64,000 bases of DNA from Sphaerobacter thermophilus DSM 20745. Lineage in GTDB: Bacteria > Chloroflexota > Chloroflexia > Thermomicrobiales > Thermomicrobiaceae. The position numbers were made by a program, and so were the translations under genes. Shown here piece after piece: positions 12,389-63,781 of the stretch (position 1 is its first letter; the number at the start of each line of letters is the position of its first letter). The notes beneath the pieces were generated by a model. The model searched no databases and had not been told where the DNA came from. It saw nothing but the letters and a program-made list of their open reading frames with translations. The stretch lies in assembly GCF_000024985.1 (NCBI RefSeq), contig NC_013523.1, positions 2,604,001 to 2,668,000 of the forward strand. Direction: 5' to 3'.

Positions 12389-12413
12389 CTCCGGTCGGCG
12401 CGAGAGATCCGTT

Positions 12414-12544
12414 CCCCCTCACCCCCCGACCCCTCTCGGACGGAGCCCACAAGGGGAGAGGGGGAGGTCATGTGGGCGGCCCGCCCGGTGCTCATTCAGG
12501 TGGCTCCCCTCTCCTAACGTTGAGAGAGGGGTTGGGGGTGAGGG
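12414..12544. repeat. Family B palindromic repeat, two-part copy
   Basis: The left part begins CCCCCTCACCCCCCGACCCC and reaches AAGGGGAGAGGGGGA. The right part reads CCCCTCTCCTAACGTTGAGA, GAGGGGTTGGGGGTGAGGG. The outer ends are inverted copies of each other. It sits between convergent genes and could serve as a bidirectional transcript end. Confidence 0.75.
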
Positions 12545-12553
12545 CCGTTCCTG

Positions 12554-14997: not shown

Positions 14998-15230
14998 TCG
15001 CGCACGATCCGCTCGACCTCGTGAACGGACGAGCTCGACAAAGTGTTACGGGTACGAGGATTCCCGTATCACGAGGGATGGATCGTGATAGTGTTCTTGG
15101 GATACGAGAGCGGGAACGGGACAGAAGCGCAGAGGGTGGCAGCTCGTACGCGGCCGGGTGGTGTGAGTGTCCGAGTACCGTGGTCGGAGGTCCGGGGTAG
15201 GTGGTGCGAGGATCCCCGGCCGTGGCATGT

Positions 15231-15389
15231 GCCCGGGGATAAATCCCCGGGCTGACACGGAGAAGTCCACTGAAGGGACTGGAGATTCTGAACCCCGCGG
15301 GCTGCCGGATCGGCTCTGCCCGGGCGTAGCCATCACAGCCCCTTTAGTGGGCTTACCCATTAATCAGCCCGGGGGTTTACCCCCGGGCA
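15231..15389. repeat. Family A palindromic element, copy 3
   Basis: A 159-bp copy bounded by GCCCGGGGATAAATCCCCGG and GCCCGGGGGTTTACCCCCGG, with inner arms AGTCCACTGAAGGGACTGG and CAGCCCCTTTAGTGGGCTT. Upstream lies a GGTGGTGCGAGGATCC tail that also precedes the copy at 37370. The whole 14998-15693 gap is repeat-derived; no gene is supported in it. Confidence 0.85.
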
Positions 15390-15438
15390 GCGACTGGATG
15401 GCCGGAACCTAATGCCGAGATGTGACCTCGATTCTTCC

Positions 15439-15490
15439 CAGCCGGCTTCAGCCGGCTTCGCCTTGTCAGCCCGGGGGTTTACCCCCGGGC
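15439..15490. repeat. Family A half-element (A' type)
   Basis: CAGCCGGCTTCAGCCGGCTT, a short linker, then the outer hairpin GCCCGGGGGTTTACCCCCGG. The preceding sequence AATGCCGAGATGTGACCTC also precedes the half-element at 52782, so this satellite arrangement recurs at the same place relative to two full copies. Confidence 0.7.
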
Positions 15491-15503
15491 ACGCACCGCC
15501 GAA

Positions 15504-15612
15504 CGGGGATCGTTACACCATCCATCCTGGGCACTAACCGCACGGGGATCGTTACACCATCCATCCTGGGCACTAACCGCACGGGGATCCTTACACCACC
15601 TACCCTGAGCAC
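15504..15612 (+). repeat. 39-bp tandem repeat, 2 exact units plus one diverged
   Basis: Units start at 15504, 15543 and 15582 with CGGGGATCGTTACACCATCC. The first two are identical; the third is diverged (CGGGGATCCTTACACCACC). The unit resembles the reverse complement of the GGTGGTGCGAGGATCC tail flanking family A, so it looks like amplification of a piece of that element. Confidence 0.85.
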
Positions 15613-19007: not shown

Positions 19008-19017
19008 GCGAGGGTTA

Positions 19018-19123
19018 CCCCTCACCCCCTGGCCCCCGCTCCCACAAGGGGAGAGGGGGAACTTCATGCGTCACGCGCCATACTCCCCTCTCCCAACGTT
19101 GGGAGAGGGGTTGGGGGTGAGGG
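19018..19123. repeat. Family B palindromic repeat, two-part copy
   Basis: The left part begins CCCCTCACCCCCTGGCCCCC. The right part contains a perfect loop-free palindrome at 19085-19110 (CCCCTCTCCCAAC and its complement), then TTGGGGGTGAGGG. A heptamer-like TTCATGCGTCACGCGCCA lies between. It separates two convergent genes and may stop transcription from both sides. Confidence 0.8.
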
Positions 19124-19185
19124 CCGTTCTCGATGACAACGCCAAGAAGCGGCGGCCACGACCGCCGCACTCCACGTGCGCAGCG

Positions 19186-20393: not shown

Positions 20394-20557
20394 GCGTGCT
20401 GCGTCATGCGTCATACGTCATCCGTCCCCCTCACCCCCGACCCCTCTCGGACGGAGCCCACCAGGGGAGAGGGGAGCAGAACGGAACACGGAACACGCAA
20501 CACGCAATACGCAATACGCAGTACGGGTGACGCATCACGCATGACGTATCACGCATC
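20394..20557. repeat. Family C heptamer element with nested family B palindrome
   Basis: Left arm: GCGTCAT units in 7-bp phase (20401-20421). Then a family B core (20426-20475). The right arm from 20481 to 20557 is eleven consecutive heptamers all starting ACG (for example ACGGAAC, ACGCAAT, ACGCATC, ACGTATC). The left units are the reverse complement of ACGCATG-type units, so the whole is an inverted repeat. It fills the 20236-20564 gap, which otherwise has no gene. Confidence 0.85.
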
Positions 20558-20564
20558 ACACCCC

Positions 20565-21092
20565 CTACGTCTCCCGCACCCGCTGGTCGGCGACGATGCG
20601 CCAGTCGCCGGCGTAGGCGTAGCAGATGGGTAGCGTGCGGCGCGGCAGCGCCAGGGTGACCGGCTGGCTGCGAACGGCGAGGAGGGTAAGCATGTGTCGC
20701 TGGTCCTGGCCATCGGGGCCGCGGACTCGGAGCCAGACATCGGCATGCGGGCTCCGGTGGTAGACGATGACGCGGTCCACCGCGAACGCGTGCCCGGCGA
20801 GCCACTCCGCGACCGCGTCCTCAGGTCGGTCGGCGACGAAGACGGGGTCCGGCGCGTCACGCCCGGGTTCGTAGCTGGTGGTGGCGCGGTTGAGGCACGT
20901 GGACCCAGCCAATCCCAGTACCCGGTAGGCCCGGATGCCCTTCAGCGCGCGGATCGGCGCGCTCTCCTCGGGGAGCCGCTGGCCGGCCCAGGTGAGCCCG
21001 AGGATGCCCAGCGCGCAGGTCGCCGCTACCCCGAGCACGACGACTGCAAGGCAGCCCAGGATCATCGTCCGCCATCGGGCGCGCGGCGTCAC
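20565..21092 (-). CDS. Hypothetical single-pass membrane protein
   Basis: 175 residues, GTG start with GAAGGG upstream. A membrane segment lies at about 10-35 (MILGCLAVVVLGVAATCALGILGLTW). The rest would be outside the cell and is beta-rich, with two Cys (STCLNRATTSYEPG and PICYAYAG) that could form a disulfide. No family is recognised. It lies 55 nt downstream of the GIDE-domain gene on the same strand, suggesting co-transcription. Confidence 0.65.
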   Translation of the reverse strand: MTPRARWRTMILGCLAVVVLGVAATCALGILGLTWAGQRLPEESAPIRALKGIRAYRVLGLAGSTCLNRATTSYEPGRDAPDPVFVADRPEDAVAEWLAGHAFAVDRVIVYHRSPHADVWLRVRGPDGQDQRHMLTLLAVRSQPVTLALPRRTLPICYAYAGDWRIVADQRVRET

Positions 21093-26943: not shown

Positions 26944-28608
<1,665 letters not shown>

Positions 28609-28626
28609 ACGCCTATCGCAGCGCCT

Positions 28627-29463: not shown

Positions 29464-29765
29464 GCGCTGACCCTCTTCCAACCTGGACCGACCACCATAC
29501 GCTCGACGCCGGAATCCCCGGCACTTGCCAGCCTAACAGCCGCCCAACGCCTCTCCAACGGCCAATTGGTCCCGAGTGTGGTGCGAAACGCTGGATGGAA
29601 CGTGACGGGTCAGTCGAACCTGCACGGTCAGTGGGTTATCAGTGCCAGCTCGATCTGGGATGCGGCGTCCAGAGCTGTCGCTCTGGTCTGTCGCGGGGCC
29701 GGATCCCCAGCGCGGCCCATGCGTGCCGAGTATGGTGGTATGAGGATCCGCGCACTGTGACGTGT

Positions 29766-29820
29766 GCCCGGGGCTGAAGCCACCGGGCTGACAAGGAAAG
29801 CCGGCTGAAGCCGGCTGGGG
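29766..29820. repeat. Family A half-element (A' type)
   Basis: GCCCGGGGCTGAAGCCACCG, linker GGGCTGACAAGGAA, then the self-complementary AGCCGGCTGAAGCCGGCT. It is preceded by GGTGGTATGAGGATCCGCGC, the flank seen at other copies. It has no 3' half. Confidence 0.65.
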
Positions 29821-29867
29821 GGAGGCACGATTCACGCAGCGGCATTGTGTCCAACCGCCCGGCGCGT

Positions 29868-30026
29868 GCCCGGGGCTGAAGCCGCCGGGCTGACAAGGCG
29901 AAGCCCACTGAAGGGGCTGGGGACGCCGCCCCTGGCGGGCTGCCGGAGCGGATACGCCTGCGCGTGGTCATCGTAGCCCCTTCAGTGGGCTTTCCCCTCT
30001 TCAGCCCGGCGGCTTTAGCCCCGGGC
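29868..30026. repeat. Family A palindromic element, copy 4
   Basis: A 159-bp full copy: GCCCGGGGCTGAAGCCGCCG, inner arms AGCCCACTGAAGGGGCTG and CAGTGGGCTTTCCCCTCTTC side, outer GCCCGGCGGCTTTAGCCCCG. The core shares GGATACGCCTGCGCGTGG with other copies. The 29464-30240 gap is mostly repeats plus the catalase terminator. Confidence 0.85.
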
Positions 30027-30175
30027 ACGGGCTGACCAGCGGACACCTGTCTAATTCATCAATCTGCATTACCCCCGGGCACATCCCTCGCGCCCACACC
30101 CGTGGCACGCCATCCGCACGGCGGGGAAACGGGTTCCTCCATGTGGACGGACTAGTTCCCGACAACGCAAACGCG

Positions 30176-44512: not shown

Positions 44513-46486
44513 ATGGCCGGCGATCTCCACCTCGACTCCGCGGCACACGAGGACGCTATCGTCTGGGAGCCGTCGCCCGCCGACCTGGAGCGCAGCCGCC
44601 TACTGCGCTTCATCCGTGAGCACGGGCTGTCCGACTACGAGGCACTGCTGGCGCGGGCTGTGGAGGACCCTGCCTGGTACTGGGATGCGGTGGTGCGGCA
44701 CCTCGAGTTGGAGTGGTACACGCCCTACGATCAGGTGCTCGATCTGAGCCGCGGGCTCCCCTGGCCGCGCTGGTTCGTCAACGGCCGGTACAACTACGTG
44801 CATGACGCGGTCGACAAGCGTGCGACCGGACCGGATCGCGACCGTATCGCCGTCGTCTGGGAGGGGGACGGCGGGGCGGTCCGGCGCCTCACCTTCGGCG
44901 AACTCGCGGCCGAGACGAACCGGCTGGCGCACGCCCTGCGTGCGCTGGGCATCGGCAAGGGGGACCGGGTCGGGATCTTCCTGCCAATGATGCCCGAGAC
45001 GGCGATCGCTACGCTGGCCTGCAGCAAGATCGGCGCGGTCTTCATCCCGATCTTCTCCGGCTACGGTGCCGAGGCGGCCGCGACACGCCTGACCGACTGC
45101 GATGCCCGCCTGCTCATCACCGCCGATGCGTTCTACCGCCGCGGGAGCGTCGTCCCGCTGAAGGCCACGGCCGATGCCGCGGCTGACCGGTCCCCGACCG
45201 TCGAGCGCCTGCTGGTCTACCGCCACGTCGGGGCGGATGTCCCCTGGAACCCGGAGCGTGACGTCTGGTGGCATGAGGCGGTCGCAGACCAGCCGGACCA
45301 CTACGACACCGAGCGGACAGCGGGCGACGACCCGTACATGATCATCTACACCTCGGGCACGACCGGTCGACCGAAGGGCGCGGTGCACACCCACGCCGGG
45401 TTCCCGATCAAGGCGGCGCACGACCTCGCCTTCTGCTTCGATCTCCAACCCGACGACACGCTGTTCTGGATCACCGACCTCGGCTGGATGATGGGGCCGT
45501 GGGCCATCGAGGGGACGCTAATGCTGGGCGCCACGCTCCTCCTCTACGAAGGCACGCCCGACTACCCCGAGCCGGACCGCCTGTGGCAGGTCGTCGAGCG
45601 GCACGGCGCGACCGTGCTCGGCGTCTCGCCGACCGCGGTGCGGGCGCTGATGAGCCGGGGCGACGAGTGGGCCACGCGGCACCCGATGCCGACGCTCCGC
45701 GCCTTCGGCTCCACCGGCGAGCCATGGAACCCCGGCCCCTGGCGCTGGCTGTTCACCGTGCCGGGGCAGAGCCGCCGGCCGATCCTGAACTATTCCGGCG
45801 GGACCGAGATCTCCGGCGGCATCGTCGGCTGCGTGACGATCAAGCCGCAGAAGCCTTGCGCCTTCACCGGTCCGGTTCCGGGCATGGCGGCCGACGTGGT
45901 CGACGCCGATGGGCGGTCGGTGCGCGGCGAGGTGGGGGAGCTGGTCATCCGCGGCCCGTGGGTCGGGATGACCAACGGCTTCTGGCGCGATCCGGACCGC
46001 TACCTCGCGACCTACTGGTCACGCTGGCCCGACGTCTGGGTCCACGGCGACTGGGCCGAGGTGGACGCCGACGGCTTCTGGTACATCCTCGGCCGCTCCG
46101 ACGATACGATCAAGGTAGCAGGCAAGCGGGTCGGACCGGCGGAAGTCGAGTCGGCCGCGGTGGCGCATCCGGCGGTGCAGGAGGCGGCCGCTATCGGCGT
46201 GCCCGACCCGGTCAAGGGCGAGGCGGTCGTCATCTTCGCCATCCTCCGTCCCGGCTATACCCCGGGAGACGACCTGCGGGAGGAGATCCGCGACGTAGTG
46301 ACCCAGCGCCTGGGTCGCCCGCTGCGCCCGGCCGACATCCGCTTCGTCAGCGACTTGCCGCGCACGCGCAACGCCAAGATCATGCGCCGCGTGATCCGCG
46401 CCAAGTACACCGGCCAGGAGAACCTGGGCGACCTCTCGGCGTTGGAGAACCCGGCCGCGGTCGAGGAGATCGGCCGGGTGGGGTGA
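44513..46486 (+). CDS. AMP-dependent acyl-CoA synthetase (acetyl-CoA synthetase-like)
   Basis: 657 residues from the ATG at 44513, with GGAGG 7 nt upstream. It is an ANL-superfamily ligase: an acyl acid plus ATP and CoA give acyl-CoA, AMP and pyrophosphate. The phosphate loop is IIYTSGTTGRPKGAVHTH (about 280-297), followed by ITDLGWMMGPW, NYSGGTEISGG, YLATYWSRWPDVWVHGDWAEVDADGFWYILGRSDDTIKVAGKRVGPAEVES, and the C-terminal lysine near 622 in RTRNAKIMRRVIR, the site of regulation by acetylation. The acid used (acetate, propionate, or longer) is not clear. Confidence 0.9.
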   Translation: MAGDLHLDSAAHEDAIVWEPSPADLERSRLLRFIREHGLSDYEALLARAVEDPAWYWDAVVRHLELEWYTPYDQVLDLSRGLPWPRWFVNGRYNYVHDAVDKRATGPDRDRIAVVWEGDGGAVRRLTFGELAAETNRLAHALRALGIGKGDRVGIFLPMMPETAIATLACSKIGAVFIPIFSGYGAEAAATRLTDCDARLLITADAFYRRGSVVPLKATADAAADRSPTVERLLVYRHVGADVPWNPERDVWWHEAVADQPDHYDTERTAGDDPYMIIYTSGTTGRPKGAVHTHAGFPIKAAHDLAFCFDLQPDDTLFWITDLGWMMGPWAIEGTLMLGATLLLYEGTPDYPEPDRLWQVVERHGATVLGVSPTAVRALMSRGDEWATRHPMPTLRAFGSTGEPWNPGPWRWLFTVPGQSRRPILNYSGGTEISGGIVGCVTIKPQKPCAFTGPVPGMAADVVDADGRSVRGEVGELVIRGPWVGMTNGFWRDPDRYLATYWSRWPDVWVHGDWAEVDADGFWYILGRSDDTIKVAGKRVGPAEVESAAVAHPAVQEAAAIGVPDPVKGEAVVIFAILRPGYTPGDDLREEIRDVVTQRLGRPLRPADIRFVSDLPRTRNAKIMRRVIRAKYTGQENLGDLSALENPAAVEEIGRVG

Positions 46487-46494
46487 GGAGTAGT

Positions 46495-46608
46495 GCGTCA
46501 TGCGTCATCCGTGTTGCGTGTTCCGTGCCGCTCCCCTCTCCCCTGGTGTGAGGGGGGGTCGGGGGTGAGGGGGACGTATCACGCATGACGCATGACGCGT
46601 GACGAATC
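46495..46608. repeat. Family C heptamer element with nested family B palindrome
   Basis: Left arm in 7-bp phase: GCGTCAT, GCGTCAT, CCGTGTT, GCGTGTT, CCGTGCC (46495-46529). The family B core is at 46531-46573. Right arm from 46574: ACGTATC, ACGCATG, ACGCATG, ACGCGTG, ACGAATC (to 46608). The arms are inverted with respect to each other. The element ends 17 nt before the next start codon. Confidence 0.85.
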
Positions 46609-47134: not shown

Positions 47135-47170
47135 CGCCGGGCCATTCGGCGGGAGCCGCGGGCGGTCCGT

Positions 47171-47330
47171 GCCCGGGGGTAAACCCCCGGGCTGACACGG
47201 CGAAGCCCACTGAAGGGGCTGGGGACGTAGTGCCCGGTGGGAAGCCGAGTCGGATACGCCTAGATGTCGCCATCACAGCCCCTTCAGTGGGCTTACCTAA
47301 ATGTGCAGCCCGGCGGCTTTAGCCCCGGGC
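47171..47330. repeat. Family A palindromic element, copy 5
   Basis: A 160-bp copy: GCCCGGGGGTAAACCCCCGG, inner AGCCCACTGAAGGGGCTG, core with GGATACGCCTAGATGTCGCC, inner CAGCCCCTTCAGTGGGCTT, outer GCCCGGCGGCTTTAGCCCCG. The 47135-47579 gap otherwise holds a partial A' remnant (TTTCAGCGGGCTTTGCC) near 47390 and a family D repeat. Confidence 0.85.
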
Positions 47331-47468
47331 ACCGACTGGGTTGTGGACACCTTATCGCCAGGCGTTGGCTCTCATCCGCCATCAGTTGGTTTCAGCGGGC
47401 TTTGCCTTGTCAGCCCAGCGGCTCCATCCGAGTCGAAGGACCTCTTCGCGTGGTGGCCGTCACTACGC

Positions 47469-52317: not shown

Positions 52318-52570
52318 CACGCCCTCCTAACCGGCTGGCTGCTCCAACGGCGTAGCGCCGATTCTACGCGATTGAGGAGGACGGGGATCCGGCCATTCCC
52401 CACCGCCCCCTCTGTCGCGTTCCGCGGTGAGGCGTGGCGCATCGTCCCACGGACGGTGGGGCTCCGGTGCGTGCATGGGCGGGTGGGGTGAGGATTTCGT
52501 CGCCGTGGCATGTGCCCGGGTCACAACCGCTATCCGCTACGCGGTAGTAGGATCATGCGCCGTGGCATGT

Positions 52571-52733
52571 GCCCGGGGGTGAACCCCCGGGCTGACAAGG
52601 AAAAGCCCGCTGAAGCGGGCTGGGGACGCCGGGTTCGATGGGAGGCCGAACCACACACGTCAGGATGTAGTCATCACAGCCCCTTCAGTGGGCTTCCCTA
52701 ATCAATATTCAGCCCGGGGATTTATCCCCGGGC
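52571..52733. repeat. Family A palindromic element, copy 6
   Basis: A 163-bp copy: GCCCGGGGGTGAACCCCCGG, a left inner arm AGCCCGCTGAAGCGGGCT that can fold on itself, right inner arm CAGCCCCTTCAGTGGGCTT, and outer GCCCGGGGATTTATCCCCGG. It is preceded by two GCCGTGGCATGTGCCCGGG tails (52503 and 52560). The 52318-52876 gap holds only repeats. Confidence 0.85.
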
Positions 52734-52781
52734 ACGTGCCGGGCGGCGGCACCTAGCGCCGAGATGTGAACTCAGTCATCC

Positions 52782-52826
52782 CAGCCGGCTGAAGCCGGCT
52801 TTCCTTGTCAGCCCGGCGGCGGGCAC
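52782..52826. repeat. Family A half-element (A' type)
   Basis: CAGCCGGCTGAAGCCGGCTT, then CCTTGTCAGCCCGGCGGCGG. The preceding CTAGCGCCGAGATGTGAACTC matches the flank of the half-element at 15439. Confidence 0.65.
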
Positions 52827-61848: not shown

Positions 61849-62802
61849 ATGCGGATCGTCTCACTCTTGCCAAGCACTACGGAGATCTGCTTCGCGCTCG
61901 GCCTGGGCGACCAGCTCGTCGCCGTCACCCACGAGTGCGACTATCCCCCGGCGGCACAGAAGCGGCCGCAGATCACCCGCAACGTTCTGCCGCCTGACAT
62001 TGACGACGGGGCCGAGATCGACCGGCTTATCCGCGAGCGGGTGCTGCGTGGGGAGTCGATCTATGAGCTGGATGTGGAACTGCTGGAGCGGCTGGAGCCG
62101 GACCTGATCCTGACCCAGGAGCTGTGCGCTGTCTGCGCCGTCTCCTACGAGGACGTGCAGGCCATTGCTCAGCGGCTGCCCAACCCGCCCCGCGTCGTCT
62201 CGATCGAGCCGCGCACGGTCGAGGAGGTGCTGGACTCGATCCTCACCGTCGGCAGCCTCACCCGGCGCACGGTGACGGCCAAAGCGGTGGTCGCGGCGTT
62301 GCGGAGCCGGATCGCGTACATCGGCGGACGGGTTGATTCGGGTCAGGCGCCGCGCCGTGTGGTGTGCCTGGAGTGGCTCGACCCGCCGATGGTCGGCGGC
62401 CACTGGGTGCCGGAGATGGTGGCGCTGGCCGGCGGGCAGGACGTGCTCGGCCGGGCAGGACAACCGTCGTTCGCGGTGACCTGGGAGCAGATCCGCGACG
62501 CCGAGCCGGAGGTGCTGGTGCTGATGCCCTGCGGCTACGACCTGCAAGGGACGATCGCCGAGGCGGAGCGTGTGTCGCGCACGGCCGGCGTGCTGCCGTC
62601 CTTCCTCGACGACATCCCGGCTGTGCACGACGGGCAGGTCTACGCGGTGGACGGCTCCGGCTACTTCAACCGGCCGGGCCCGCGGATCGTCGGCGGGATT
62701 GAGATCCTGGCCGGGATTCTCCACCCGGAGCGGTTCGCCCGGGGTGGGCCGCCGGGCACCGTGCAGCAGATCCGGCTGGGGGCTGCGGAGCCGGTCCGGT
62801 GA
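61849..62802 (+). CDS. Cobalamin-binding (BtuF-like) ABC solute-binding-fold protein
   Basis: 317 residues with AAGGA before the ATG. RIVSLLPSTTEICFALGLGDQLVAVTHECDYPP and RVVCLEWLDPPMVGGHWVPEMVALAGG, GYFNRPGPRIVGGIEILAGILHPERF are standard BtuF/cobalamin-binding segments. It lacks a signal peptide or lipobox, unlike periplasmic binding proteins, so it may be cytoplasmic or use another route. The stop overlaps the start of the membrane gene (GTGA). Together they may handle B12 for the class II reductase encoded 36 kb away. Confidence 0.85.
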   Translation: MRIVSLLPSTTEICFALGLGDQLVAVTHECDYPPAAQKRPQITRNVLPPDIDDGAEIDRLIRERVLRGESIYELDVELLERLEPDLILTQELCAVCAVSYEDVQAIAQRLPNPPRVVSIEPRTVEEVLDSILTVGSLTRRTVTAKAVVAALRSRIAYIGGRVDSGQAPRRVVCLEWLDPPMVGGHWVPEMVALAGGQDVLGRAGQPSFAVTWEQIRDAEPEVLVLMPCGYDLQGTIAEAERVSRTAGVLPSFLDDIPAVHDGQVYAVDGSGYFNRPGPRIVGGIEILAGILHPERFARGGPPGTVQQIRLGAAEPVR

Positions 62803-63644
62803 CCGAGCAGGCCGACCTGATGCCCGAAGTAGTGGTGCGGCGGCGTGGCTCACCCGTCATCTGGGCGGCTAGCCTGGTGGGCCTCCTCACCTTCACCTAT
62901 CCCTTCTTCCTTCCGGCGTTGGGTCGCCCGGAGCGACTGACCGGCCGTGGCACCGAGGTGGCGCTCCTCTTCGCCGTGCTGTCCGTGGTCTGCCTGGGAA
63001 CCATCCTGCTAGAGGTCCAGGCGGGTGCCACCGCGCGCGGCGCAGCGACGTCGAAGATGGTAGCCTTCCTCGGCGTCCTGGTGGCCGTGAACGCCGCACT
63101 GCGCCTGATTCCGAGCCTGCTCGGTGCCTCGCCGATCTTTCTGCTCATCATCCTGGTGGGGTTTGCCTACGGGGCCGACTTCGGCTTCCTGATGGGCGCA
63201 CTCACCCTGCTCGTCTCGGCCTTCATCACCGGCGGGCTGGGCCCGTGGCTCCCCTTCCAGATGCTGGCTGCGGGCTGGGTCGGGATGAGCGCCGGCTGGT
63301 TGCCGCGTCGAGGGGGACGGCGCGATGTGGTGGTGCTGGCCGTGTTCGGCGCCGTCTGGGGGTTCCTCTTCGGTGCGGTGATGAACCTCTACTTCTGGCC
63401 CTTTGCCGCGCCCGGGCTGGAGCAGCCGGCCGGGTTGTACTGGGTGCCGGGGATGAGCGCTGCCGAAACGCTGCGGACCTACGCTCGCTTCTACCTCGTG
63501 ACCTCGCTCGTCCACGACCTCTTCCGTGCCGCGGCCAACGTGGTGCTGGTGCTGCTGCTGGCCCGTCCGATCCTGGCACTGCTCGATCGCTTCCACGAGC
63601 GCTTCACCTGGCAGCCGTGGGAGGAACTCCCGGCGGAGGGGTGA
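62799..63644 (+). CDS. ECF transporter S-component (CbrT-like)
   Basis: 281 residues, GTG start within the previous stop. It has about six to seven membrane segments: SPVIWAASLVGLLTFTYPFFLPAL, LFAVLSVVCLGTILLEVQ, MVAFLGVLVAVNAALRLIP, IFLLIILVGFAYGADFGFLMGALTLLVSAFITGGLGPWLPFQMLAAGWVG are typical of substrate-binding ECF components. Size and the partner gene support a cobalamin-type specificity. No ATPase or T-component is adjacent. Confidence 0.8.
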   Translation: MTEQADLMPEVVVRRRGSPVIWAASLVGLLTFTYPFFLPALGRPERLTGRGTEVALLFAVLSVVCLGTILLEVQAGATARGAATSKMVAFLGVLVAVNAALRLIPSLLGASPIFLLIILVGFAYGADFGFLMGALTLLVSAFITGGLGPWLPFQMLAAGWVGMSAGWLPRRGGRRDVVVLAVFGAVWGFLFGAVMNLYFWPFAAPGLEQPAGLYWVPGMSAAETLRTYARFYLVTSLVHDLFRAAANVVLVLLLARPILALLDRFHERFTWQPWEELPAEG

Positions 63645-63645
63645 T

Positions 63646-63781
63646 GCGTCACCCGTAGGGCCTGTTGCGTGTTCCGTGTTTCGTGTTCCGTGCGGCTCCC
63701 CTCTCCCCTGGTGGGCTCCGCCCGAGCGGGGTCGGGGGTGAGGGGGACGGGTGACGCATCACGCATGACGCAGGATGCGAG
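63646..63781. repeat. Family C heptamer element with nested family B palindrome
   Basis: Left arm in 7-bp phase from 63646 (GCGTCAC, CCGTAGG, GCCTGTT, GCGTGTT, CCGTGTT, TCGTGTT). The family B core is at 63696-63748. Right arm from 63747: ACGGGTG, ACGCATC, ACGCATG, ACGCAGG. It begins 2 nt after the S-component stop codon. Confidence 0.85.

Follow-up and report, generated by a model that had tools for sequence, protein, structure and literature searches.

The closest described case to the repeats analysed here is found in Xanthomonas, where heptamers of the form GGGAATC, or more generally (GGGANTN)n, recur (Rehm et al. 2015, PMC4692102). As characterized in the passages of that paper available to us, these are heterogeneous heptamers with fixed and variable positions; they are intergenic, depleted between divergent genes and found near stop codons, their lengths vary by species and they frequently occur as inverted pairs (70 and 75 cases). 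REP and BIME sequences, including the GTAG- and CGTC-tagged families, are short, high-copy extragenic palindromes that often lie at gene 3' ends and form head-to-head pairs, and some families have no dedicated transposase; the CGTC REPs have stems of 8-9 bp and loops of 4-5 nt (PMC3733652). Dispersed intergenic repeats with a 7-base period have also been described, in the available part of PMC6749651, as cyanobacterial STRR sequences, other long heptamer repeats and the (GATAGRA)n satellites of Chloroflexus. Finally, template switching during replication has been found in other systems to homogenize the arms of inverted repeats and to invert their spacers (PMC8604942; PMC8794818).

The window considered here is a stretch of 64,000 nucleotides from Sphaerobacter thermophilus (G000:C1:2604001-2668000). 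The genome consists of two replicons, of 2,741,033 and 1,252,731 bases, and totals 3,993,764 bases; the same total is published for strain S 6022T, which has a growth optimum of 55 C and a G+C content of 68.1% (PMC3035262). The genome was sampled through the window and 60 systematic 20-kb stretches over both replicons, giving 1.26 Mb or approximately 30% of the genome, and was compared with a sister species, represented by the MAG Sphaerobacter sp. HOG56 (G001), and with a third Sphaerobacter species (G002).

A sequence-only reading of the window had described intergenic tracts in which heptamers beginning ACG keep a strict 7-base phase, and the eleven successive ACG-initial heptamers at 20481-20557 were confirmed exactly. 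Their four-base endings are, in order, GAAC, GAAC, CAAC, CAAT, CAAT, CAGT, GGTG, CATC, CATG, TATC and CATC, which include the AAC, AAT, AGT, ATC and ATG endings previously listed as well as a GTG ending that had been overlooked. Further tracts had been placed near 28413-28482, 28546-28608, 46495-46529 and 46574-46608, and these too are present: runs of five CGT-phased heptamers start at 20395, 28407, 28449 and 46496, and runs of ten and five ACG-phased heptamers occupy 28546-28615 and 46574-46608 respectively. The CGT tracts at 28407 and 28449 have a common register, lying 42 nt apart with a broken unit in between. The interval 63646-63781, by comparison, does not stand as a single phased tract, and resolves into a CGT piece (63641-63656), four CGT-phased heptamers from 63668 in another register, a core of approximately 55 nt and four ACG-phased heptamers at 63747-63774.

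Runs of five or more ACG/CGT units in phase numbered 47 in intergenic DNA of the 1.26-Mb sample, whereas 50 dinucleotide shuffles gave 0.0, the comparison by which the sequence-only reading had proposed to be judged; for runs of four or more units the figures were 79 and 0.1. A genome-wide scan for (ACGNNNN)x5 gave 171+218 overlapping matches, compared with 5+8 for a reversed control. Among phased-trinucleotide runs, 7 is the dominant period (71 runs), followed by its harmonic 14 (23 runs), with at most 12 runs at each other period from 4 to 15. Shuffles, reversed control and period scan together ruled out a chance origin of the tracts, and the original observation is confirmed as real and well beyond chance.

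The tracts are not independent units but the two arms of an inverted-repeat hairpin element. In three genomes the left arm carries CGT every 7 bases and the right arm ACG every 7 bases, with a polarity of 66:0, so that the arms are complementary. Between them lies, in most cases, a REP-like palindrome of the form CCCCTCACCCCCGACCCCTCTC-loop-GAGAGGGG; a different core is enclosed in approximately one-quarter to one-third of two-armed elements, and the arms are therefore not strictly bound to the palindrome. This pairing of inverted arms around a mostly REP-like core had been overlooked, and the earlier interpretation is only partly supported. The S. thermophilus sample contains 51 palindromic cores, and the presence of heptamer arms is strongly associated with the loop subtype: arms accompany 17 of 19 palindromes with the GGACGGAG/CCACCAGG loop and 1 of 23 with the plain TTGG loop (p 1e-8), the corresponding counts in the sister species being 11/15 and 2/26. 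The heptamer vocabulary is small and common to all sites, with six words making up 57% of units; words such as ACGCATG, ACGCAAC and ACGGAAC contain no G-tract able to form a quadruplex. Words are shared more between the arms of one element than across elements (0.46 versus 0.32; permutation p 2e-4). How heptamer classes follow one another along an arm was too noisy to be informative. At two places in the window, 12411-12545 and 19015-19125, paired REP-like palindromes also stand head to head with heptamer arms absent or reduced to a trace.

These properties bear on whether the tracts could be ordinary simple-sequence repeats that arose by 7-nt slippage independently in many spacers, unrelated to the REP-like core. 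In many genomes no other long repeat class is as abundant as heptamer repeats, and a length of 7 nt has been suggested to favour polymerase slippage (Mrazek et al. 2007, cited in the available passages of PMC4679880); the tracts change between species in steps of 7, and certain tracts are single or surround unrelated cores. The fixed polarity and the vocabulary common to all sites are nevertheless difficult to reconcile with independent origins, and the strong loop-subtype association largely refutes them, making this explanation improbable.

The window contains four such elements (A-D), all of which fold more stably than every one of their shuffles (z -3.9 to -6.0), and all of whose arms were annotated on the plus strand. 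Known structured RNA was ruled out, as Rfam gave no match above the gathering score in the window. Element A has a left arm of five CGT-phased heptamers (20395..20425) that pairs with the outer part of the right arm, a plus-strand REP-like core (20426..20477; CCCCCTCACCCCCGACCCCTCTCGGACGGAGCCCACCAGGGGAGAGGGGAGC) with an GGACGGAG loop, and the right arm of eleven ACG-phased heptamers (20481..20557), which stops 7 nt short of the stop codon of a minus-strand gene (20565-21065). Element B consists of a left arm of CGT-phased heptamers in a single register with one broken unit (28407..28483), a plus-strand core (28484..28545) that is not REP-like and has diverged between species with the arms still alignable, and a right arm of ten ACG-phased heptamers (28546..28615). 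In element C, five CGT-phased heptamers (46496..46530), beginning 9 nt past the stop codon of gene 44513-46486, and five ACG-phased heptamers (46574..46608) enclose a REP-like core in reverse orientation (46531..46573, minus strand). Element D has a left arm (63641..63691) made up of a 16-nt outer piece (63641-63656), placed directly after the stop codon of gene 62799-63644 and pairing perfectly with 63747-63762, and then the four CGT-phased heptamers from 63668; its REP-like core (63692..63746, minus strand) is in reverse orientation and is followed by a right arm of four ACG-phased heptamers (63747..63774).

In the S. thermophilus sample, 51 of 55 heptamer elements lie within predicted spacers; at the sampled density, the genome as a whole would carry about 170 elements. 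Elements sit at gene 3' ends and avoid divergent spacers: among spacers of at least 60 bases they occupy 37 of 374 co-directional, 13 of 105 convergent and 1 of 131 divergent ones (p 6e-5). They frequently span the whole spacer between a stop codon and the following ribosome-binding site or stop codon. Position relative to the stop codon, which had been suggested as a check, proved to be phased in all three genomes: the distance from the stop codon to the first CGT equals 2 modulo 7 in 27 of 54 cases in S. thermophilus (expected 1 in 7; p 5e-10), and the stop codon is likewise in heptamer phase in 10/18 cases in the sister species and 23/41 in the third species. In-phase first units, of the form TNNTGCG, open with the stop codon itself (e.g. 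TGATGCG, TAGTGCG). Gene borders came from our own simple predictor and individual distances may be off, but border errors would not produce such a modulo-7 pattern.

A position at the 3' ends of genes, only 1 of 51 elements being in a divergent spacer, together with strong folding and conservation of the triplet in excess of the flanks, would be in keeping with a functional 3'-end structure under selection, either a bidirectional terminator or an mRNA stabilizer, in which the heptamers merely form the stem; in many bacteria, stable stem-loops are concentrated at the 3' ends of genes (PMC1590033). However, only a minority of spacers is occupied, no T-run follows the elements, their content turns over fast, and selection against insertion near promoters predicts an identical location. 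Judged from sequence, the elements may act at the 3' ends of RNAs, but we regard such a role as unlikely to be what accounts for them. An invariant triplet at invariant spacing might alternatively point to an array of protein binding sites or a site of translational regulation, as proposed for the TAACTGA repeats of Beggiatoaceae, whose short-heptamer arrays have been interpreted in this way (PMC4679880). Near absence from divergent spacers, inverted pairing of the arms, and the speed with which unit number and words change all run counter to such a role, which appears very improbable indeed.

Comparison between species showed how the elements change. The element is also present in the sister species at 14 of 16 comparable sites, and at the ten sites aligned in detail the flanks are 92.7% identical. 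Of 20 gaps touching the arms, 13 measured 7, 14, 21 or 28 nt. Within the arms the fixed triplet is 96% identical and the four variable positions 80%, although the sites were picked for ACG in S. thermophilus, which somewhat favours the triplet. Both results support growth by slippage plus mutation, one of two explanations offered by the sequence-only reading. The other, selection on spacing, was set aside: the substitution pattern does not demand it, because exchange among heptamers that share ACG yields the same pattern.

Changes in the core were also found. At eight comparable sites, core orientation relative to the sister species is reversed at two (20395 and 63668), the same at five and ambiguous at one; relative to the third species the core is reversed at L039:6783 and, as judged by eye, at L039:6042. 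In element A (20395) the outer arms are preserved and the interior is reversed, whereas at 63668 the reversed core, which is forward in the sister species, is accompanied by differing outer flanks. At 46496 the core loop type is switched between species, which simple inversion does not explain. These reversals are differences between species as read from single assemblies. Among 219 perfect inverted repeats mapped in the same genomes, two spacer inversions were seen, at a parS-like pair and at a 5-nt loop. The parS-like pair, at L081:19348-19407, consists of two sites (GTTTCACGTGAAAC) in inverted arrangement, and the 24 nt between them have opposite orientations in S. thermophilus and the sister species. 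In addition, at L074:525-570 a terminator-like hairpin that adjoins a heptamer tract (L074:569) has a 15-nt loop that is inverted in the sister species.

A MITE-type mobile element, with the arms as terminal inverted repeats recognized by a transposase and the reversed cores as new insertions, would account for the dispersal, the inverted ends and a composite that moves as a unit, and one site is empty in the third species and filled in the sister species (L108 versus L114). Against this, neither a target-site duplication nor a clean junction was seen at the few sites compared, element ends vary by whole heptamers, and the genome's single Y1 transposase gene has a different REP family on its flanks. 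We consider such an origin rather unlikely. That gene, RAYT-like, lies at locus L126 (G000:C1 86896-87234), where the flanking repeats, of the form CCCCTTCAGTGGGCTTCGCC...CCCGGGGGTTTACCCCCGGGC, belong to the different family; copies of the heptamer family do not flank it, and a RAYT-mobilized element was ruled out on that ground. No enzyme for dispersal was found. The second REP family, GTGCCCGGGGCTGAAGCCGCCGGGCTGACAAGGCGAAGCCCACTGAAGGGGCTGGG and its relatives, is unrelated to the heptamer elements. It occurs in the window at 15229-15492, 29764-30032, 47165-47421 and 52564-52819 and in dozens of places in the sister species; 2.9 copies of a 39-bp unit, with 92% matches, overlap it at 15499-15612. 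The Y1 transposase gene itself adjoins a gene for a gyrase subunit.

We favour, with a probability of roughly 0.68, a dispersed family of REP-like intergenic hairpins of Sphaerobacter whose arms grow by 7-nt slippage and are homogenized and flipped by template switching. Arms would lengthen and shorten through slippage. As the two arms can pair, template switching between them during replication would make the arms of one element alike and turn the enclosed segment. The changes in 7-nt steps and the reversed cores are plain from the alignments; that template switching caused the reversals is what we infer, and at these few sites a reversed core may instead be a second copy inserted in the opposite orientation. 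Purifying selection on the flanking coding sequence would limit outward growth of the arms on both sides, so that the stop codon would often become the first unit of the array. More tentatively, the composites may have spread early in the genus, and the transcribed hairpin may be tolerated, or even used, as a 3'-end structure. It is also conceivable, though very unlikely, that a dedicated enzyme builds both arms, for example by adding 7 nt at a time to the 3' ends of broken hairpins. If true, this would account for the constant polarity, for arms that enclose unrelated cores and for the recurrence in distant bacteria of inverted heptamer pairs with unrelated words.

The palindrome itself is widespread in the order, and the heptamer vocabulary is concentrated in the genus Sphaerobacter. 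The five-unit pattern has 389 matches in S. thermophilus, 274 in the sister species and 608 in the third species, and 0 in another 18 searched genomes of the family; across 400 evenly drawn Chloroflexota genomes, a stricter vocabulary pattern gave 115 matches in S. thermophilus and no more than 12 in each of the others. The same vocabulary (ACGCATC, ACGGATC, ACGCAAC) was noted in a few tracts of three genomes of another family of the same class (G302, G121 and G350), including an inverted pair at G302:C95:357330-357383. Heptamer tracts built from ACGAAGT, TCGTCAG, GACGAGT and GACGGCA were noted at L031, L032, L033 and L037, in other families of the order, and at L031 and L032, single loci from two of these families, some form inverted pairs around a core. 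From such single loci, it may be that the heptamer period recurs in other families of the order and the word does not.

How, then, do the elements compare with the systems described previously? As the sequence-only reading had stated, the likeness to the heptamers of cyanobacteria is limited to the period: those repeats and the (GATAGRA)n satellites form direct arrays of other words, and the available part of PMC6749651 describes no pairing of inverted arrays about a core. The Sphaerobacter element is, like REP and BIME sequences, a high-copy extragenic palindrome, but it is longer and C-rich and carries heptamer arms. CGTC precedes many of its cores, but the stems and loops are longer than and different from those of the CGTC REPs. 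With template-switch mutation at inverted repeats the elements share arm homogenization and spacer inversion, although the reported spacers are of a few bases, while the segment reversed here measures approximately 50-100 nt and lies between arms made of slipping tandem repeats. The layout most similar is that of the Xanthomonas GGGAATC repeats, since these are likewise phased heptamers of fixed and variable positions placed as inverted pairs in spacers, and the Sphaerobacter element is therefore not a wholly new kind. It differs in its word, in its core, in the stop-codon phase and in the visible reversal; for the Xanthomonas repeats the proposed structure is a G-quadruplex and not a stem, and the passages available from PMC4692102 mention neither a core common to the repeats nor a phase relative to the stop codon nor any reversal of a core. 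The Sphaerobacter elements show intergenic repeats growing up to, and incorporating, the stop codon, and, as a natural system, allow slippage, arm homogenization and spacer inversion to be followed together at shared sites of sister species. Together with the Xanthomonas case, they suggest that inverted heptamer pairs arise repeatedly in the intergenic DNA of bacteria, with words that differ between lineages.
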